A stretch of DNA of 64,000 nucleotides, from assembly GCF_001577775.1 (NCBI RefSeq), contig NZ_CP010835.1, forward strand, positions 248,001-312,000. The letters are read 5' to 3'. Origin of the DNA: Pyrococcus kukulkanii. GTDB taxonomy: Archaea; Methanobacteriota_B; Thermococci; Thermococcales; Thermococcaceae. The notes under the pieces were generated by a model, which was not told where the DNA came from, did no database searches, and saw only the letters and a program-made list of their open reading frames with translations. A program made the position numbers and the translations under genes. Each line of letters opens with the position of its first letter. Positions within the stretch are counted from its first letter, which is position 1. Shown piece after piece: positions 14,136-30,730 of this stretch.

Positions 14136-18149
<4,014 letters not shown>

Positions 18150-21504: not shown

Positions 21505-21522
21505 CAGAAAAATTTTTAATAC
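21505..21522 (+). promoter_or_regulatory. cmr1: Probable promoter of the Cmr operon
   Basis: A BRE/TATA-like element, GCAGAAAAATTTTTAATAC, sits about 75 bases upstream of cmr1, and GGGGGATGA at 21579-21587 provides the ribosome binding site. By-eye assignment. Confidence 0.45.
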
Positions 21523-21590
21523 TTTAATCTACAGTATTAGTGGACACTCTTTCCTGTTATCCACACCCTCAAATTTATGGGGGATGATTA

Positions 21591-22919
21591 ATGTACGAGG
21601 TTACGTTTGAATTGGAGAATATTACTCCTCTTTTCATGCACGGTGCCGATCAGGGCACGGCAGAATTTCGAGCTGCCAGCGTGAAGGGAGTAATGAGATG
21701 GTGGTTCAGGGCCTTGGCTGGAAATTACTTTGGAGATAACATCCCTGGGCTGAAGAAAGCTGAGTGCAGAATTTTTGGGTGTGCGGGGAGTGGAGAGGCT
21801 AAGAGGAGTTCGGTTATTATTGAATGCTCGCACAGGACATCTAATAAGCAGGAAAAGCCGAAATCTGGATATGAGAGATATTTCTGGTTTTCTCAAATCG
21901 GCAAATTTGCGAAAGGTGCAATTCCTCGCGGAAGAGTATTAAAATTACGGCTTAAAAGCCATGATGAGGTAGCACTTAGGTTGGCTGTCCTTTCCTTGTG
22001 GCCAGCTCTCCACCTTGGAGGCTTTGGTTCTAGGGCTAGAAGACTTGGTGGTTCTTTATTCCCCGTTAGTGAACCCGAAGGAAATATTAAAATTGATATA
22101 AATTTTCTTCCGCCGGAAAATGGGAATATCGCTGGCTTTTATAGAGATATTTTAGGAAACAAACTGCTTTCAAAGTTTGAGGCTGCGCTTAAGGAGCTGG
22201 GATTTGATTTGGAGGAGGCTGATTTTGAGGGCTTACCAAAATATCCTGTGCTGAGTAGGAGGTATTCAGGAGTTTTTGTTGGGAAACTACATGATAGTGC
22301 TGACGAGGCAATATCTGAGGTTGGTGAGTGGTACCTTGGTGAGCACAGGAGGAACAAATTTGAAGGAGGTTTCAGATTCAAAGAGGCTGATAGGGGGCTT
22401 CTCTCTAGAATCTATAGGAAGTATAATGACATCCGGGAGAGCGGCAGAAGAAATGAGAATATAACAATTAGTGTCCCCGTAAGGAGAGAGTGGAGACCGT
22501 TTTTTGGACTTCCGATTCAGATGTATAAGGAGTTTTCATATGGTGAATTCGTTCAGCTAACTATTAATTATACTGGCTATAATAGCAATAGTAATAGCAA
22601 CATTAACAAAGTTAGTAGGCGGGCCTCGGGAGTATTACTCACAATAAATAAAGTTAGGCAACAAGGATTTACTAAATATTACCACGTAATTACCGTTTTT
22701 GCCTCTGAATATCTCCCTGAATACAGGGGATACATTGGGTATAATGGAGGTATAAAGAAAAGAGTACGCAGAGGATCAATACCTCTTGCTGGGGTACAAG
22801 GTTCAATACTACAGGATGGTATGATCCGGAGTAAGTATATTTCCTTCTTAAATGAGCTCTTTTCAAGTCTGCAGAAGGAATTCAAGCTCGTTTATGGCTC
22901 TTTGGAGGGATTAAAATGA
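21591..22919 (+). CDS. cmr1: Type III-B CRISPR effector subunit Cmr1 (Cas7 group RAMP)
   Basis: The 442-residue RAMP protein begins with a ferredoxin-like beta strand, FELENITPLFMHGADQGTAE, followed by FRAASVKGVMRWWFRAL, the signature of Cmr1, and a glycine-rich LHLGGFGSRARRLGGS loop typical of the RAMP G-rich motif. Cmr1 caps one end of the Cmr ribonucleoprotein and helps bind target RNA. It is the first gene of an eight-gene operon whose members overlap or abut; its stop overlaps the cmr2 start (AATGAA). Its codon use is more AT-rich than that of cmr2. Confidence 0.93.
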   Translation: MYEVTFELENITPLFMHGADQGTAEFRAASVKGVMRWWFRALAGNYFGDNIPGLKKAECRIFGCAGSGEAKRSSVIIECSHRTSNKQEKPKSGYERYFWFSQIGKFAKGAIPRGRVLKLRLKSHDEVALRLAVLSLWPALHLGGFGSRARRLGGSLFPVSEPEGNIKIDINFLPPENGNIAGFYRDILGNKLLSKFEAALKELGFDLEEADFEGLPKYPVLSRRYSGVFVGKLHDSADEAISEVGEWYLGEHRRNKFEGGFRFKEADRGLLSRIYRKYNDIRESGRRNENITISVPVRREWRPFFGLPIQMYKEFSYGEFVQLTINYTGYNSNSNSNINKVSRRASGVLLTINKVRQQGFTKYYHVITVFASEYLPEYRGYIGYNGGIKKRVRRGSIPLAGVQGSILQDGMIRSKYISFLNELFSSLQKEFKLVYGSLEGLK

Positions 22920-25783
22920 ATTGGAAAAGTTACTCACGTGCATTCCTAGAAGTTGCTCCTTCAAGGATCCTTGGCTCTCTATTGGGCCTCAATGACCTGC
23001 CGGAGGAGTGGAAGAAGCTTTCGAGCTATTCCCCTAAGGATTCTCGCACTTTAACTAAGTTCGTTCTCAAGCACCCAATAAGTGCCAAAGAAAAGGAATT
23101 GGTGCACCTATCTAAGTTCTGGAGAAATTCCTTACAAAATGAAAAAGAGAAACTTTTGAATGCACTTAGGAAAGCTGAAGAGGATGTTGCCAATAAGCTG
23201 AAAAACGCTGGTTCTATAGAGGAGTTCGCGAGATTATGGAATAATTTGCCCAAGATGCTTAAAGATGCCTACGAGAAAGAACTGAAGCAACTAAACCTAA
23301 ATCTCGAAATTGCAGAGGAACTAGTTAATCTCCCGGCAGACCCCTTTGTTCCAGATCATGACTGGCTCAGCAGACTTGACATCTACACCCAGCTAAAGGC
23401 CGGAAATGGGGAAGTAACCCTGGTAAGGTTTAAACTCTCCCCCGTTCAGGGATTCATAGGCAACGCGAGAACCGAGAGGGATCTGTGGGCGGGCAGTCAC
23501 ATACTAAGCTTCCTCACGTACCTAGCTATATCCAGGCTCTGGAGGAAGTTTGGCCCAAATGCCATTATAGTTCCCCACCTTAGAGGCCAGCCGTTCTTTG
23601 AGCATGAGCTTAAGATACTGAAAGAGAGGGACAAGCTGGACATAGCTAACATGCCCAACAAAGTCCTTGCAATAGTCCCGGGAACTGTCGATGTAAAGGC
23701 ACTGGAAGAAGACATCAGGTGCGACATTAAGGGGTTCCTTGAGAAGTTGTTCCAGGCAGCTTGGAGCTTTTATGATCTTGGCGACATTTTCGAGGATGAT
23801 CCAGTTTATAATGAAATCGTTCGCAATTACTTCTCAATAACGGTTGAAGCGTTTCCGCTTTCTAAGACTCCCGGCATTGAAAGTGCCCTAAGGAAGTACC
23901 TGAGCATTATTGAGGAAAAGGATGAGGTTCACTACTACTCTGAGGTTTTTGCAGTTCTCGATCAGCTGACTGATTTTAAGTCCGCAGAGCACTTCCCGCC
24001 TGAACAGCCTAAGGGCTTTAAGTGCACGCTCTGTGGGGAGAACTTGGCGATAGGAGGTAGGGATAAAGATAAAGTCAAACACGGCTGGAGTACCCTGCGA
24101 AACAAGCTCAGGGAGGGGAGAATATATGACATCAAAGAAAGCGAGAGGTTATGTCCCCTATGCCTCGTTAAGAGGTTCTATCCTAGGTTCTATTCCCTCT
24201 GGAAGGTAGATTACTCGTGGGTTGAACAAGTAGCAAAAGTGATATCTCAGGAAGCAAAGATGAAGCGGAGCGGCCAGCAGGGGCCAAAAGGCTTCATGTC
24301 AGTGAGCGAAGTTGCAATGAGGAGGGTTACGGAGGAATCTCTAGACAGGTTTAATAAAGACGAGCTGTTCGTGATAAATGACTCCGGATCAAAGGACAGA
24401 CCTGTAACGTGGTATGATATTTTCCTCCACCAGCTCTTTTACACGGGTGCTAGAAGCGAGTGGAGGGGAGAAGTGAGGCCTCCGAAGTTTGGTGGGAGTA
24501 GGAAACAAGAGTTCGAGGGCACTCTTGGTCAGCTTGCAGGCTACTTAAGGCCCCTGTTCCAGGGGCTTGAGCCGGACTGTGAGGTTTTATACAAGGATAA
24601 CTTAAGGAGTGAAGATGCTGTTGCGAAGGTCTTTGGCGTTGACAGGTACTCGTTGCCATCTGGAATTAACCTTGAGGGCCTGAAAACTGGGGTATCTAAA
24701 CTCGAAGATCTGGTAGGTGAGCCCCCTAAGTACCATTCCCTGCTTAAGATGGATGGAGACAACATGGGCAAACTCCTGAGCGGTACAAAGAGCGTTAAAG
24801 ACGTTGGCGAGTACATGATTAATGGTAACAGGTTGGGTGTTAGGAGGCCCTCGACGCCAACCGTTCACGTGGCAATAACCCGCTCCCTCAGCAACTTCGC
24901 GGTGAACCACGTTCCGAAGATCTCAAAGGATTATGGTGCTGAGTTGCTGTATGCTGGTGGCGATGATGTCTTTGCCGTCGCTCCGACGGATACGGTGTTC
25001 TCACTAGCTTATGAAATCCAGAAGAAGTTCCGTGAGGACTGGAATGGATTTGAGTACCTCCAAGGAAGCACTAGGAGCATGAGCGCTGGGATTTTGATAA
25101 CCTACTATAAGGAGCCCCTCTATATAGCGGTGAGAAGGGTTGCAGAGCTTGAGCATTTTGCAAAGGAAAGCGGTAGAAACGCGGTTGCAATAGGATACAG
25201 GAAGCACAGCGGCACTTACTATTGGGTTGTAGCAAACTGGAGCGTCTTCTCTGGGGAACACCTGAGGAATTTCCTTAGAGAAATGAGAAGTGGCAAGATA
25301 AGCAGGAAGTTGCTTTATGAGCTGGATACTAAGCTATGGCCGAACGATCCCCTGGCGGTTCTGAATTTAGTCAAATACGAACTGTCGAGGCATTCAAGTT
25401 ATGGGGAGAATGAAAAAGAAGCCTTAGTTGATAGGTTTGCTGAGTTCCTGTGGGTCGTGAGGAACATAAGGGTGAAAGTTTCAGATGGGGATGTTCCTGG
25501 GGTAAATGTAGGGGTAGTTAACGATCTCGTGGCTGAGGTTATAGTGGATGACCCTGAGAACCCCAACACCGATTCCTTTGAGAAAATAAAACAGGTAGCA
25601 GAAGCCGTATGGCATGGACATGATATTAAAAATTCATGGTTCATCGAGTTGCAGAACAAATTGATCCAGAAATTTGGTGAAGAATGGGCCAAGATGATAA
25701 CTGGACTTGTTCTCAAGAAGCAGGTTTGGGGAGCTTCGGTTCTCCTCAAGATTCTCTTGGAGGCGGGGTGGGCCCTATGGTAA
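22916..25783 (+). CDS. cmr2: Type III-B Cas10 (Cmr2) without a recognisable HD nuclease domain
   Basis: The 955-residue large subunit contains the Cmr2 landmarks LPADPFVPDHDWLSRL and KLSPVQGFIGNARTERDLW, a zinc ribbon (Cys370, Cys373, Cys413, Cys416), a first palm segment LLKMDGDNMGKLLSG, and the second palm with GGDD at residues 681-684. The intact GGDD site predicts cyclic oligoadenylate synthesis. The N-terminus lacks the H-D-P-P-D-K segment and other HD residues usual in Cmr2; only about 50 residues precede the HPIS block that normally follows the HD domain. It should therefore lack target-activated DNase activity. It ends inside cmr3. Confidence 0.93.
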   Translation: MNWKSYSRAFLEVAPSRILGSLLGLNDLPEEWKKLSSYSPKDSRTLTKFVLKHPISAKEKELVHLSKFWRNSLQNEKEKLLNALRKAEEDVANKLKNAGSIEEFARLWNNLPKMLKDAYEKELKQLNLNLEIAEELVNLPADPFVPDHDWLSRLDIYTQLKAGNGEVTLVRFKLSPVQGFIGNARTERDLWAGSHILSFLTYLAISRLWRKFGPNAIIVPHLRGQPFFEHELKILKERDKLDIANMPNKVLAIVPGTVDVKALEEDIRCDIKGFLEKLFQAAWSFYDLGDIFEDDPVYNEIVRNYFSITVEAFPLSKTPGIESALRKYLSIIEEKDEVHYYSEVFAVLDQLTDFKSAEHFPPEQPKGFKCTLCGENLAIGGRDKDKVKHGWSTLRNKLREGRIYDIKESERLCPLCLVKRFYPRFYSLWKVDYSWVEQVAKVISQEAKMKRSGQQGPKGFMSVSEVAMRRVTEESLDRFNKDELFVINDSGSKDRPVTWYDIFLHQLFYTGARSEWRGEVRPPKFGGSRKQEFEGTLGQLAGYLRPLFQGLEPDCEVLYKDNLRSEDAVAKVFGVDRYSLPSGINLEGLKTGVSKLEDLVGEPPKYHSLLKMDGDNMGKLLSGTKSVKDVGEYMINGNRLGVRRPSTPTVHVAITRSLSNFAVNHVPKISKDYGAELLYAGGDDVFAVAPTDTVFSLAYEIQKKFREDWNGFEYLQGSTRSMSAGILITYYKEPLYIAVRRVAELEHFAKESGRNAVAIGYRKHSGTYYWVVANWSVFSGEHLRNFLREMRSGKISRKLLYELDTKLWPNDPLAVLNLVKYELSRHSSYGENEKEALVDRFAEFLWVVRNIRVKVSDGDVPGVNVGVVNDLVAEVIVDDPENPNTDSFEKIKQVAEAVWHGHDIKNSWFIELQNKLIQKFGEEWAKMITGLVLKKQVWGASVLLKILLEAGWALW

Positions 25784-26784
25784 TGGAGATCCTCCCAAAT
25801 GACGTTCTAATGTTTAGGGAAAGCAGGGAGTTTTCCGCCGGCGAGTACCATATTGCCGTGACTAGGGAACCACTACCTCACACGATAGCGGGGGCAATAA
25901 TGGCAAACCTCTACCTAAAAGGAGGAGTGGACTTAATAAACTACAACAGTGATTTAAAGCGGTGGAAGCCTGGTTTCTCGATTCTCGGTGTTTTCTTCGC
26001 TAAAGGCGGTAAACCGCTATTTCCCCTTCCCAAAGATCTTGTAGCTATTGATAACGGCGTAGTTTATCCCCTCAAGCCCAGGGAAGTTTTTGGGAGAGTT
26101 ATAGTAGTTGCGGGAAGTGAAGGTAATGAAACCCTCAGATTTAAGCCCGCTGGAGGCTTTCTTACATTGGATGATCTCAACAACTATTTAACTGGAAAGG
26201 GTGGCCCATTCACTCCTGTGCCTTCAGGAGATGTATACGTATTGGAGGAGCGAATAGGGATTGGCATCGATAGGGACAGGAGGGTTGTGGTGGAGGGCCT
26301 GCTGTACCGTACTGTAAACTTGAGGGTCAGGGAGGGAGTTTCGCTCAAAGTGTACTTTGAAAGGGGTGAAGACAAAGTTAAGGAGATCATCGGGGAGAAA
26401 GGCATGCTTAGGCTGGGAGGTGAGTCTAGGTTTGCCACGTACAGGTTCAATGGGGATGAGTTTCCAGTAAGGCTGAATGATGAGAAGAGTTCTCTTATCC
26501 GTCTGTACTTTGCGACGCCCCTAATACCTAGGGGCGGAATTGAGGGAGTTTTAAATGAATTAAAAATCGAGGGAAGAATTCTAAAGGTATTTACGGGAAG
26601 GAAAATTGCCGTAACTGGCTGGGACATGAAGGCTAAAATGCCCAAGGAGACTCTCTACGCGTATCCAGCTGGAACCGTGGTCTGGGTTGAGGCTGATGGG
26701 CCCGTGGAGATTGGGGAGCCCCTGAAGGCGGGCTTAATGAAGGAGTTTGGTTACGGACTAGTTCTTCCTGGGGTGATGGGTTAA
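25777..26784 (+). CDS. cmr3: Type III-B CRISPR effector subunit Cmr3 (Cas5 group RAMP)
   Basis: The 335-residue protein opens with ILPNDVLMFRESREFSAGE followed by a PLPHTIAGAIMANLY segment, matching the Cmr3 family pattern (D-x3-F-R-x5-F-x-A-G, then P-x-T-I-x-G-A). A C-terminal LVLPG block ends the protein. Cmr3 binds Cas10 and the 5-prime handle of the crRNA. The start at 25777 overlaps the cmr2 stop and follows GGGGTGGG; an ATG two codons later is a near alternative. An upstream open frame to 25684 is only overlap with cmr2. Confidence 0.9.
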   Translation: MVMEILPNDVLMFRESREFSAGEYHIAVTREPLPHTIAGAIMANLYLKGGVDLINYNSDLKRWKPGFSILGVFFAKGGKPLFPLPKDLVAIDNGVVYPLKPREVFGRVIVVAGSEGNETLRFKPAGGFLTLDDLNNYLTGKGGPFTPVPSGDVYVLEERIGIGIDRDRRVVVEGLLYRTVNLRVREGVSLKVYFERGEDKVKEIIGEKGMLRLGGESRFATYRFNGDEFPVRLNDEKSSLIRLYFATPLIPRGGIEGVLNELKIEGRILKVFTGRKIAVTGWDMKAKMPKETLYAYPAGTVVWVEADGPVEIGEPLKAGLMKEFGYGLVLPGVMG

Positions 26785-27773
26785 TGGGCGTGTATCATGT
26801 TTCTGGCCTGGGTCTTAGCCCAGGAGCCCTAACAATGCCCCTTACGTGTGTGTACATCCTCCAGGCGGCGGCAAGGTTTGGACATGAGGAGGCAAGAAAG
26901 TTCTTTGAGCTCTCCGGAGAGGCCCCCAGAAAGGGAAGCTATGAGAAGCACAAGGGTGAGCCTGAGGCTATAATAGTTCTGGACTCTAAGGAAGCTATAC
27001 AAGGTGGGCTACACCTTAGGTACGAATCTCGCTGGTTCAAGATGCAGTCTAATGGTAAGGAGCCGATTGAAAAGCCTATCGTGAAGTACATATGTAAGCT
27101 TCTCTCGCACCTAAACGGCATCCTGGAGAGGCAGGGACTCGATGGTATAAGTCCCCCTAAGTACCTATATTTAGTTACCGTTGACTATCAGGACTTTGAA
27201 AATGCTTTAGATACTGCTGGAGCTCTACTCCTTGGGTTTGAGAGGAAAGAGGTGTGGGTTAACCTGATCGGAGGCTCTAACCAGCTAAACTTAGCGTTGA
27301 TGATAGCCGGTGATTACACGATGATTCCAGCCAGATACTATTACGTCTTTCAGAATTCGATGAGGTTGGAACCAGAGTGGCTAGAGAAGCTCCCCAGGAA
27401 AAGGGAAGACTTCATGAGGTCTGCTGATGTAATACTGAATCGTTGGTACGATCTGCCTCCTCTAAACCTGGGCTACGGGGATATTCTGAGGAGGTTAATT
27501 GATGAATTTAGCTACAGGCAAGTAATTTCAAGAAGTGAGCTGGAGCAGATAATAGCGGACGCTGGTTATGGGAGGCCCAGCGACTTCATTCCAAAGCTCA
27601 TCAGCACCAGATACATCGTCCCCCTCGGAAAAGACGTCTTCGGTTCAGGAGGAATGCTTGAACGCGTGAAGACGCTGTTTGAAAAAATCGAGGAGCACAG
27701 GGAGAATCTGAGGAATATGGACATCAAGAGGTACCTCGGAGATAAAATGAAGGAGGTCGAGTTTTCATGCTGA
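26784..27773 (+). CDS. CARF-domain protein with C-terminal winged helix, inside the Cmr operon
   Basis: The 329-residue protein shows both conserved CARF ligand-binding patches: GLGLSPGALTMPLT after the first strand, and VWVNLIGGSNQLNLAL near residue 155, equivalent to the G-G-T-K loop. After the CARF fold a winged-helix-like segment follows (VISRSELEQIIADAGYG, then LISTRYIVPLG) and a charged helix. I find no R-x4-6-H HEPN motif and no PD-D/E-x-K nuclease pattern. It would sense cyclic oligoadenylate made by the neighbouring Cas10. The absence of a nuclease suggests a regulatory or adaptor output. Its end overlaps csx3 by seven bases. Confidence 0.75.
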   Translation: MGVYHVSGLGLSPGALTMPLTCVYILQAAARFGHEEARKFFELSGEAPRKGSYEKHKGEPEAIIVLDSKEAIQGGLHLRYESRWFKMQSNGKEPIEKPIVKYICKLLSHLNGILERQGLDGISPPKYLYLVTVDYQDFENALDTAGALLLGFERKEVWVNLIGGSNQLNLALMIAGDYTMIPARYYYVFQNSMRLEPEWLEKLPRKREDFMRSADVILNRWYDLPPLNLGYGDILRRLIDEFSYRQVISRSELEQIIADAGYGRPSDFIPKLISTRYIVPLGKDVFGSGGMLERVKTLFEKIEEHRENLRNMDIKRYLGDKMKEVEFSC

Positions 27774-28066
27774 AATTTAAAACAGTTGAGCTCGAAGAAT
27801 TCACGGTAGTTCATTTCGAAATAGATGAAGTTCTTGAGCCTAAGGAGCTGAAGTCTCTTAATCCGCCGAAAGTTAAGGCAAATAAGGGGGTAGTTCTCAG
27901 CGGAAGGGGCCCAATATGGCTCTACGCCTTTCTCGTTCACCACTATCACCCAGTCGCTTGGATCGGCACTTATGATCCTAGGATTGGAGTTGTAGTTGTT
28001 GAATCACATGTTCTTGGGGTTGAGCCTGGTGACGTTTACCAACTCAACATAGAGGAGGTGCTCTAG
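27767..28066 (+). CDS. csx3: Csx3 (Crn3-type ring nuclease candidate)
   Basis: The 99-residue protein matches Csx3 in length and signature: VVLSGRGPIWLYAFLVHHYH, then WIGTYDPR and VVVVESH. Csx3 proteins degrade cyclic tetra-adenylate and so switch off the type III signal. His61, Asp70 and Arg72 align, offset by one, with the catalytic or binding residues described for the Archaeoglobus protein. The gene overlaps the CARF gene at its start and abuts cmr4 at its end (TAGATG), so it is made together with the effector complex. This places synthesis, sensing and removal of the messenger in one operon. Confidence 0.9.
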   Translation: MLKFKTVELEEFTVVHFEIDEVLEPKELKSLNPPKVKANKGVVLSGRGPIWLYAFLVHHYHPVAWIGTYDPRIGVVVVESHVLGVEPGDVYQLNIEEVL

Positions 28067-28948
28067 ATGTATGAGAAGACATTAGTTCTCGGGTTGTATT
28101 CCATAACTCCTGTCCACGCTGGAAGCGGGGCTGAACTGAGTGTTGTTGATCTGCCAATTCAGAGGGAACGCCACACCGGCTTCCCAACGATCTGGGGCCA
28201 GAGCCTTAAGGGAGCATTGAGGAGTGCATTTGAGAGGGAGGGCAAGAATAAAGGAGTGATATACTCTATTTTTGGGCCAGATACGGATAAGGCAAGCGAA
28301 CACGCAGGTGCAATTTCAGTAGGAGATGCGAGGATATTGCTATTTCCGGTGAGGAGTGCCAGGGGCGTCTTTGCCTACGTCACGTGTCCCATGGTTCTGA
28401 AGAGGTTTAGGAGGGATATGGAATTCGCTGGAAGGAATGATATTGCAAACTTTGAGGTTCCCAGCGTTAAAGATAAAGAAGCAGTTGTGCCTCAAGGCTC
28501 GATACTTACGATAAACAGGAACAATGAAACTCTGGTTGTGCTGGAAGATCTCCTCTTAACGGCTAAAGAGAATGAGCTCTCACAGATTATCAATGCGATA
28601 GAGAAAATTATTCCAGACGGCGTAGATGATCTAGGGAAGAGGCTTGTAGTAGTCAGCGACAACGTATTCACGGCCTTCGTCAAGTTCTCCACGGAAATAC
28701 TCGCTAGAATAGCTATAGACCAAAGCAGGGGCACAGTTAAGGAGGGCGGTCTTTGGTACGAGGAATTCCTACCGGCGGATACCCTGCTGTACTCGATAAT
28801 AGCGATATCAAAGCCCAAAGGCGGTTCATTAAATGATGCTGAGGTGGTTAAGAGTGAACTTCAGGGCTTCTTGGAGAGCAAGACTTACCTCCAAGTTGGT
28901 GGAGATGAGACTGTTGGAAAGGGCTTCATGAAAATAAAGGTTCTCTGA
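28067..28948 (+). CDS. cmr4: Type III-B CRISPR backbone subunit Cmr4 (Cas7, target RNase)
   Basis: The 293-residue protein starts YSITPVHAGSGAELSVVDLP followed by IQRERHTGFPTIWGQSLKGA, the diagnostic Cmr4 block. Asp28 of the VVDLPIQRE loop corresponds to the catalytic aspartate that cuts target RNA every six nucleotides. A VGGDETVGKGFMKI G-rich loop closes the RAMP fold. Several copies form the filament along the crRNA. With the loop and Asp intact, target RNA cleavage should be active even though Cas10 lacks HD. It abuts csx3, and cmr5 follows after ten bases. Confidence 0.95.
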   Translation: MYEKTLVLGLYSITPVHAGSGAELSVVDLPIQRERHTGFPTIWGQSLKGALRSAFEREGKNKGVIYSIFGPDTDKASEHAGAISVGDARILLFPVRSARGVFAYVTCPMVLKRFRRDMEFAGRNDIANFEVPSVKDKEAVVPQGSILTINRNNETLVVLEDLLLTAKENELSQIINAIEKIIPDGVDDLGKRLVVVSDNVFTAFVKFSTEILARIAIDQSRGTVKEGGLWYEEFLPADTLLYSIIAISKPKGGSLNDAEVVKSELQGFLESKTYLQVGGDETVGKGFMKIKVL

Positions 28949-28958
28949 GGTGGTGTCA

Positions 28959-29396
28959 ATGGACATCAGGACGCTCGAGCAGCAGAGGGCAGGGTTTGCT
29001 TACAATAAAGTCCTGGAGGTAAGCAAAGAGAGCGAAGATATTCAGAAGAAGTATAGATCATACGTTAGAAGCGCGCCTACCCTGATATTAACCAATGGTC
29101 TGGGTCAAACCTTGGCCTTTTACCTTTCAAAAATCGGAAACTCCGATGGCAACTACGAAAAGATAGATCCTGGCAACCTAGAAAAGGCTGACCAGAAGGC
29201 TCACGCCTACCTCTACAGGCACATAGCGGAGTGGCTTGATAAGAAAATAATTCACAGCGAGAATCCCATTGAATACTACATTAGGGCAAGCTCGACAGAA
29301 GTCTTGATGATGACTGAAGAGGTCATTGCCCTCCTCAAGTGGATGAGGCGTTTTGCCGATGCTATGCTTAAAGGGGACGAGCGAGGTGAAGGATAG
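28959..29396 (+). CDS. cmr5: Type III-B CRISPR small subunit Cmr5
   Basis: The 145-residue helical protein matches the Cmr5 small subunit: LEQQRAGFAYNKVLEVS at the N-terminus and RSAPTLILTNGLGQTLAFYL, the characteristic P-x-L-I-x-x-N-G-L block. Cmr5 lines the inner side of the filament and helps bind the target strand. The ATG at 28959 follows GAGGTGG by five bases; an upstream GTG at 28950 lies inside that site. The last base overlaps the GTG start of cmr6. Confidence 0.93.
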   Translation: MDIRTLEQQRAGFAYNKVLEVSKESEDIQKKYRSYVRSAPTLILTNGLGQTLAFYLSKIGNSDGNYEKIDPGNLEKADQKAHAYLYRHIAEWLDKKIIHSENPIEYYIRASSTEVLMMTEEVIALLKWMRRFADAMLKGDERGEG

Positions 29397-30409
29397 TGAC
29401 TCCAATTTACTTCCTTCCTAGGGACCTTCTTTCAGTCCTTAGGGATAGGAAGGGCAGAATTACTCCGCAAACTGTAGACAATCTTTCCCTCCTTCTCGAT
29501 AGATTTGCCCCTTTTGTAAAGGGAGGTAAAGAGGAAACTGCAAAAACTGGTGGAAAGGTTCTAAAGGATGTGCTTGGGGAGATAGAAATTCCGGAATCCC
29601 TGGTCAGAACTTACAGAGTTTTTTACAACAGATACAAAGAAGGGCTTTTGAAGTCGATTAAGGCTGAATGGGTAGTTTTAACAACTAAGTCAAGGCTGGT
29701 CGTTGGCCTTGGGGATGAGAGCATCTACGAAACGAGCATAAGGCTTCTGAGAAACTATGGCGTTCCATATATCCCTGGGTCTGCAATAAAAGGCGTAACA
29801 AGAGCTTGGTCAATTGAAATGCTTTCAGAATTGCTTGAAGGTGCTGATGGATTTAGTAAGGATTTCTTTGAGAGGGCAGGTGAAGTTCAAGAATTGCTCT
29901 CTAAGGGGGACGCAGATGGATTTCCAGATAAAGCCAAAGTTCCCAGTCACGCAAGTGAAGAACTTAATGAATTTCTTAGTGCTTTTGGTGTTCGTGCTGA
30001 TCCTGGGAGCGATGTTAATCTTAGGGGAATAGTTAGTGATATCATTGATGTATTTGGAACCCAGGACAAGGAAGGCAGTATCGTGTTCTTTGATGCCCTA
30101 CCAGACCCAGATAACTTAAAAAGCATATTTGAATGGGACATAATGAATCCCCACTATGGGCCATATTATCAGCAGAATGACAAGCCTCCAGGGGATTGGT
30201 ATGATCCTGTTCCTGTGATATTCCTTACAGTGAAGAGTGGAGTTGAGTTCCTGTTTGCTGTTGCACAGTTATCAACAGCCAAGAAGGATCTCAAGAGAGT
30301 TGCACAGGAGTTAATGGTTGGAGCATTAAAGTACCATGGTGTTGGTGCAAAAACTAGCCTTGGATACGGTCGTTTTAAATTTAAGAATACCGCTAGGAGA
30401 GGACAGTGA
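29396..30409 (+). CDS. cmr6: Type III-B CRISPR effector subunit Cmr6 (Cas7 group RAMP)
   Basis: The 337-residue protein has the RAMP pattern LVVGLGDESIYETSIRLL followed by NYGVPYIPGSAIKGVTRAW, a central VFGTQDKEGSIVFFDALP segment and a C-terminal GVGAKTSLGYGRF G-rich loop, which together identify Cmr6. It sits at the far end of the Cmr filament. It starts with GTG and GGTGAAGG upstream, and closes the operon. About 100 bases separate it from the convergent tRNA gene; no CRISPR repeats follow. Confidence 0.93.
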   Translation: MTPIYFLPRDLLSVLRDRKGRITPQTVDNLSLLLDRFAPFVKGGKEETAKTGGKVLKDVLGEIEIPESLVRTYRVFYNRYKEGLLKSIKAEWVVLTTKSRLVVGLGDESIYETSIRLLRNYGVPYIPGSAIKGVTRAWSIEMLSELLEGADGFSKDFFERAGEVQELLSKGDADGFPDKAKVPSHASEELNEFLSAFGVRADPGSDVNLRGIVSDIIDVFGTQDKEGSIVFFDALPDPDNLKSIFEWDIMNPHYGPYYQQNDKPPGDWYDPVPVIFLTVKSGVEFLFAVAQLSTAKKDLKRVAQELMVGALKYHGVGAKTSLGYGRFKFKNTARRGQ

Positions 30410-30507
30410 ATCTTGGTATGACACTTAGCTAAGCCCTTTGTTAAGTATTTTATCAAGAAGTACGAGAAAGTTTGATGATCTCTCTGTCTAATGAAGAAGA
30501 ATATTGA

Positions 30508-30583
30508 TGGTAGCCCCGCCGGGATTCGAACCCGGGTCGCGGGATCCAAAGTCCCGCATGCTTGGCCGCTACACCACGGGGCT
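30508..30583 (-). tRNA. tRNA-Gln (anticodon TTG), CCA encoded
   Basis: Read on the minus strand the sequence folds into a full cloverleaf. The acceptor stem AGCCCCG pairs with CGGGGCT. The anticodon arm is CGGGA-CTTTGGA-TCCCG with TTG at 30549-30547, and the T arm contains GGTTCGAATCC. Discriminator A is followed by an encoded CCA (30510-30508). No intron is present. A TATA-like AATTTAAAAG lies at 30620-30611, about 30 bases upstream of the 5-prime end. It decodes CAA and probably CAG. Confidence 0.95.
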
Positions 30584-30610
30584 ACTCCCAATTTAAACCT
30601 CCCACATTGC

Positions 30611-30620
30611 CTTTTAAATT
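30611..30620 (-). promoter_or_regulatory. TATA-like element of the tRNA-Gln gene
   Basis: The minus-strand sequence AATTTAAAAG lies 28 to 37 bases before the mature tRNA 5-prime end, the spacing expected for an archaeal TATA box. Confidence 0.55.
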
Positions 30621-30730
30621 TAATCTTTTCCATATTGGGATAATTATCGTCAATAAATGATATAATGGTATTTAATTAACCACAATAAATTTAAATTCTC
30701 ATTGAGGATACTTTGATTGGTGAATCCTCT

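Follow-up and report, generated by a model that had tools for sequence, protein, structure and literature searches.

The type III-B operon of Pyrococcus kukulkanii raises the question of what a CARF protein that ends in a predicted winged helix (wHTH), and carries no recognisable nuclease, does beside the putative ring nuclease Csx3 in the middle of the cmr genes. The locus lies within a stretch of 64,000 nucleotides, hereafter the window, and is encoded on its plus strand. The operon is complete, with the order cmr1-cas10-cmr3-CARF-csx3-cmr4-cmr5-cmr6. Its six cmr genes all score above the NCBIfam cut-offs in profile searches: cmr1 (21591–22919; TIGR01894, E 2.1e-18), cas10/cmr2 (22916–25783; TIGR02577, E 4.4e-84), cmr3 (25777–26784; TIGR01888, E 1.5e-50), cmr4 (28067–28948; TIGR02580, E 1.5e-83), cmr5 (28950–29396; TIGR01881, E 7.4e-34) and cmr6 (29396–30409; TIGR01898, E 1.1e-60). 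An earlier note on this DNA placed a CARF gene and an overlapping csx3 between cmr3 and cmr4, and its coordinates and gene names are correct. The CARF-wHTH gene (26784–27773) codes for 329 residues and csx3/crn3 (27767–28066; TIGR02579, E 1.6e-32; PF09620, E 1.1e-31) for 99. The csx3 start overlaps the CARF stop by 7 nt (ATGCTGA), and the Shine-Dalgarno-like AGGAGGT that would serve csx3 (27751–27757, plus strand) lies within the C-terminal CARF codons.

Cas10 keeps the GGDD of the cyclase palm that the same note had read, intact at residue 681. Its N-terminus reads FLEVAPSRIL, which aligns EV at the HD position, whereas the HD-bearing proteins of loci L086 and L087, the only ones with this type of motif, have FLHDPPDK or FHDPPDK. 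The loss of HD is common to most Thermococcaceae Cmr2 proteins, whether Csx1 or the CARF protein fills the slot downstream of cmr3. The HD nuclease motif of Cas10 is common in type III-B operons, not obligatory. Judged from its genes, the window system would be able to cleave target RNA and to signal, and probably does so without DNA cutting by HD. Window Cas10 is the sole cyclase palm detected in its genome, so any cyclic oligoadenylate (cOA) in this genome derives from it. As far as the genome was searched, family by family, two proteins would read this signal, the CARF-wHTH protein and a CARF-PIN protein whose gene lies elsewhere; other sensors may have escaped a search of this kind.

The CARF protein matches the PADLOC profile CARF3--CARF (PDLC01864) with E 1.1e-137 (residues 1–329 over profile positions 1–298), as do all 10 members of set A2. 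It also matches PDLC01427, a profile labelled Csx1, over its full length (E 3e-110). The family is thus already catalogued, though no output is assigned to it. The profile search gave no NCBIfam match, and the Pfam matches are weak (HFX_2341_N 8.5e-4, Csa3_N 0.17); the Csa3_N score of 12.3 bits stands against a curated cut-off of 27, and the best value in the family, 0.017, is also below the Pfam cut-off. This weak profile similarity relates the CARF core to Csa3 and HFX_2341. Searches of PDB sequences with phmmer and profiles returned chance matches only. The AlphaFold2 model (mean pLDDT 72.5) has an N-terminal half of Rossmann type, with alternating helices and strands, and a winged helix predicted at residues 230–304 (helix-strand-helix-helix-strand-strand-helix) whose 10-residue blocks reach pLDDT 78–93. 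A second model, of the homologue at locus L020, was built like the first on an alignment of four sequences; it was poor (pLDDT 59.6) and was left out of the analysis. The best PDB match of the CARF model in Foldseek is Sis0811 (E 2e-3, prob 0.99, TM 0.26), and Csa3 comes at rank 30.

The earlier note had described this protein as a winged-helix CARF protein with neither a HEPN nor a PD-(D/E)xK nuclease site, and the description holds. R-x4-6-H is absent from the C-terminal half of all eight non-redundant members tested, no PD-(D/E)xK site occurs in the 329 residues, and no nuclease family of Pfam, NCBIfam or PADLOC is matched, HEPN over the C-terminal half included. Structure prediction likewise gave no nuclease fold in that half, the feature named beforehand as speaking against the proposal. 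The claim that both ligand-binding patches are present fared less evenly. Among 12 members the most conserved regions are motif I (GLGxSPGAxTxPL) and the motif II region (KEVWxNLIGGSNQxNLAL...RYYYVFQ). Motif I of the window protein (GLGxSPGA) is canonical, but motif II reads GG[S/T]NQ in the family, with Asn where Lys is usual in 12/12 members; the sequences compared from CARF-PIN and from CARF5 neighbours have GRK at this place. Residues 1–16, which hold motif I, and 45–55 have pLDDT below 50, and the pocket itself is therefore not captured by the model. A conserved C-terminal tail, E-V-x-F-x-C, was considered as a protein motif and rejected, being explained by the csx3 ribosome site and the ATGCTGA overlap.

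Csx3 poses fewer difficulties. With H57, H60, D69, R71 and H80 of AF_1864 taken as the catalytic residues for the comparison, the window protein keeps every catalytic and ligand residue (S45, G46, R47, H58, H61, D70, R72 and H81). AF_1864 has been shown biochemically to be a ring nuclease that cleaves cA4 (PMC7371418). Window Csx3 is by this likeness a putative Crn3-type ring nuclease that differs from AF_1864 in nothing of kind, its cA4 cleavage being carried over from that protein. The view that predicted synthesis, sensing and removal of the messenger are encoded together in one operon stands, with the GGDD-bearing Cas10, the CARF-wHTH protein and Csx3 as its parts.

The two genes also stay together in other genomes. 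The CARF gene is present in 9 of 94 Thermococcaceae genomes, with csx3 directly downstream in every case. The overlap measures 7 nt at six of these loci and 1, 11 and 17 nt at the others, and the eight pairs outside the window have purine-rich sites like the ribosome-binding site described above. Counting A. fulgidus and one further archaeon with the nine, an overlap between csx3 and the CARF stop is seen in 11 of 12 carriers. Among 36 Cas10-positive genomes, Csx3 occurs in 9/9 with the CARF protein and in 2/27 without it (Fisher p 6e-7, an optimistic value since close relatives are included). The two Thermococcaceae genomes with csx3 and no CARF-wHTH gene are G011, where csx3 stands alone between cmr3 and cmr4 with Csx1 and CARF-PIN genes alongside, and G015, where it is the last gene of a III-A-like operon and adjoins CARF-PIN. 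The order cmr3-CARF-csx3-cmr4, whose conservation the earlier note had asked about, is found beyond the window genome and identically in G232, taken to be A. fulgidus because its csx3 is 100% identical to AF_1864. The prototype Crn3 is thus itself encoded in this arrangement, and its natural CARF partner has been overlooked. G332, an archaeon outside Thermococcaceae, has CARF-csx3 after cmr6. The only carrier without csx3 is the Methanomicrobia MAG JdFR-19 (L020), in which a PF09623/CARF5-type CARF protein is encoded directly upstream. In this MAG the cas10 beside the divergent CARF homologue is split into three frames (L020:188-2572), by sequencing error or by decay.

The pair closes a III-A-like operon in G016. 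The CARF protein of this genome is 50–58% identical to the copies of III-B loci, the Cas10 proteins are at most 32% identical, and the pair accordingly moves between operon types. The identity profiles of CARF and csx3, whose values are not independent, correlate at rho 0.96 against 0.74–0.89 with the cmr genes, which suggests that these two track each other best. CARF and csx3 form one portable cassette, found on III-B operons and once on a III-A-like one. Relatives of the CARF protein were found neither by tblastn in phages and plasmids nor in a scan of IMG/VR, and nothing therefore points to carriage by viruses or plasmids; a viral structure library likewise gave no match to the CARF model.

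The position of the cassette is informative as well. The cmr3-cmr4 interval is empty in two loci and holds a Csx1 of 476–523 residues in eight III-B loci (L078, L079, L080, L082, L084, L085, L086 and L087); one of the eight was tested directly (PfuCsx1, 4EOG, E 1.5e-107), and the others are identified by where they lie, by their size, and by a start or HEPN segment in common. CARF-csx3 thus lies where these loci have Csx1. The two CARF proteins share this slot and, through PDLC01427, a label, but that of the window has a predicted wHTH in place of the HEPN domain of Csx1 (CARF-HEPN). PfuCsx1 degrades its own cA4 activator (PMC7192623), whereas in the window sensing and removal would fall to two overlapping genes, with removal by Csx3.

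The note further held that the window has no nuclease output. This is true of the window and not of its genome, which encodes a full CARF-PIN protein (PADLOC CARF_m1--CARF_PIN), a predicted type III signalling effector. Its gene is separate, at G000:C1:1218427-1219878 on the same chromosome 0.94 Mb away, and its product carries a PIN nuclease domain and is 58% identical to the G015 copy. Full CARF-PIN genes occur in 18 of the 94 Thermococcaceae genomes, all of them Cas10-positive, and in 7 of the 9 carriers of CARF-wHTH; the two others, G058 and G068, are drafts. Among Cas10-positive genomes the two proteins show no significant association (7/9 against 11/27, p 0.12). No intact Csx1 was found in the window genome with two queries. 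The Csx1_HEPN match that was considered as one belongs to a fusion remnant, a 373-residue ORF (G000:C1:1229348-1230469; L025:7849-8970, minus strand) in which the N-terminal HD part of Csm1/Cas10 is joined in frame to the HEPN end of Csx1. The fusion corresponds to a 5.7-kb deletion relative to G010, with about 6 nt shared at its ends, that removed csm2-csm5; it lies directly before cas8b-cas7-cas5, and the region is intact in G010 and G005.

Taken together, the cassette suggests that the alarm is here read by gene regulation rather than by cutting, CARF-csx3 standing in place of an RNA-cutting enzyme. On this reading, binding of target RNA would lead the HD-less Cas10 to make cyclic oligoadenylate, most likely cA4, which would be bound in the CARF groove of a CARF-wHTH dimer. 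A shift driven by the ligand could then make the winged helices engage nucleic acid differently, most simply DNA, and so alter transcription of the cmr operon and perhaps of other defence genes, as has been proposed for Csa3. Translation of csx3 would keep step with that of the CARF gene it overlaps, its product would cleave cA4 and reset the state, and the CARF-PIN protein encoded elsewhere would probably carry out the destruction that this alarm calls for. That the CARF-wHTH protein senses cA4 and acts on nucleic acid, with Csx3 resetting the signal, we regard as evenly balanced between true and false. Held more tentatively, and somewhat below an even chance, is the fuller proposal that cOA is read by a dedicated non-nuclease CARF-wHTH protein which replaces Csx1 and whose translation is coupled to that of a ring nuclease of its own, as a self-resetting switch of transcription or at the RNA level, with nuclease action delegated to CARF-PIN or absent.

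By analogy, Csa3 supports the reading as a regulator. This transcription factor associated with type I-A is also a CARF-wHTH protein without a nuclease domain, and it binds cA4 and is not active as a ring nuclease (PMC8844856, PMC8699464); the window protein is probably inactive in the same way. It differs in that the window gene lies inside a III-B effector operon (once III-A-like), nearly always with a ring nuclease, and in that its product has 329 residues against the 194 positions of the PADLOC Csa3 model and a motif II without Arg or Lys. The invariant Asn of motif II could mean a different ligand. Two features of the wHTH count against the regulator: its residues vary more among members than those of the CARF pocket (mean majority frequency 0.57 against 0.85–0.93), and with charges of +22/−21 it is not net basic.

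It is conceivable, if rather unlikely, that the CARF-wHTH protein acts instead as a direct effector of unrecognised activity, whose wHTH or linker would, once cA4 is bound, engage RNA, the ribosome or a protein partner and so halt the cell in place of Csx1. The positional exchange with csx1 agrees with this, and an HD-less Cas10 leads one to expect an effector; new effectors have in fact been sought in loci with an active cyclase and neither HD nor a known effector (PMC11229360). Near-invariant residues to which no role is assigned (W84-F85, K155-E156-x-W158 and YYY) could serve such an activity. The protein shows, however, no catalytic motif of a known kind, the part of effector may already be filled by CARF-PIN in trans, and the reading of nucleic acids is the usual role of wHTH domains.

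Less probable still is that the CARF-wHTH protein itself cleaves or buffers cA4 in the manner of Crn1/Sis0811, by which the operon would have two layers of removal and all output would pass through CARF-PIN in trans. Sis0811/Sso1393 (Crn1), the best PDB match of the CARF model though at a low TM, is a CARF-wHTH ring nuclease with the same domain order; the GxS of motif I is kept in 10/12 members, and CARF-PIN is present in the same genome and in most Thermococcaceae carriers. Positions in motifs I and II matter for cA4 cleavage in Crn1 (PMC10018336), and they are changed in this family, which argues against a ring nuclease. The Lys important in Crn1 (Lys106 of Sis0455/Sso2081; PMC10018336) is the invariant Asn, and in place of the Ser of motif I A. 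fulgidus has Arg and L020 has His. These substitutions fit a sensor that needs a separate off-switch. A dedicated ring nuclease moreover adjoins in 11/12 carriers, unlike in Crn1, while a second ring nuclease was present in only about 4% of the ring-nuclease loci of one survey (PMC12409355), and the draft genomes G058 and G068 have no full CARF-PIN through which output could pass. That CARF-csx3 is a chance or decaying insertion without function is barely credible, since nothing was found in its favour beyond the absent function assignment, and 39 aligned positions are invariant in 12 members and the intact overlapping pair is kept in several genera and two operon types.

Proximity of csx3 to Csx1 and to other uncharacterised CARF family proteins was stated in 2020 (PMC7371418), and the family is modelled in PADLOC; the suggestion of an undescribed variant of type III signalling therefore holds for function and not for the family or its neighbourhood. 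No paper on the function of this CARF protein was found in a partial literature search. The components are of known kinds, while the recognition of the cassette and of its exchange with csx1, the coupling of its genes in translation, the connection to AF_1864 and a corrected reading of the Csx1 label appear to be new. The last of these concerns automatic annotation, as the protein matches a profile called Csx1 and has no HEPN nuclease. Predicted transcription factors were left out of the census of type III effectors (PMC11229360), and 31 ring-nuclease loci have no known effector (PMC12409355); for such loci CARF-csx3 is a concrete candidate. If the reading is true, the effector operon of type III immunity includes an output that regulates and does not destroy, and the pair offers a small two-protein system for the joint study of signal sensing and removal.

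The inverted repeat TAATACT-N9-AGTATTA in the cmr promoter (21517–21539, no strand assigned) is a speculative candidate operator, offered as a lead. Three Pyrococcus genomes share both arms letter for letter, while 3 of the 9 spacer bases differ. A search for the exact pattern gave one copy in each of these three and none in the remaining 91 Thermococcaceae, but the three copies go back to a single site. A repeat with 7-nt arms arises in 5–16% of shuffled spacers. The repeat falls after a TATA-like stretch, which its left arm overlaps, and before the expected start site, and its conservation may be due in part to the TATA box. A shared operator was sought in the Thermococcus carriers, and none was found. 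Downstream of this conserved promoter, the cmr1 of the window (21591–22919) is 41% identical to the copy of G010, the closest relative, against 94–99% for the adjacent cas10, cmr3 and CARF, an apparent replacement of a single gene.

Several observations were made in passing. Note that a weak Csa3-like frame (26.9 bits, in an open frame of 216 residues) lies at G000:C1:723229-723579. Hydrophobic proteins of about 400–430 residues are encoded repeatedly near CARF-PIN (L012:13161-14459, L076:7369-8583, L082:15497-16711, L077:5311-6561, L080:13823-14920 and L073:2562-3770); one copy, searched against Pfam and PADLOC, matched neither, and the protein is a possible unrecognised partner of CARF-PIN. 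Short CARF-like frames (about 160–175 residues) adjoin a separate PIN-half frame in many Thermococcaceae (for example G002:C1:1028900-1030269). These split pairs are widespread, also in genomes without Cas10, and perhaps act outside CRISPR. Within the window, a tRNA-Gln gene (30508–30583, minus strand) lies directly 3' of cmr6 and may mark an integration hot spot; the 154-residue frame antisense over it (30169–30633) is probably spurious. The ribonucleotide reductase ORF (14295–18149), with 1284 residues, appears from its sequence to contain an intein.
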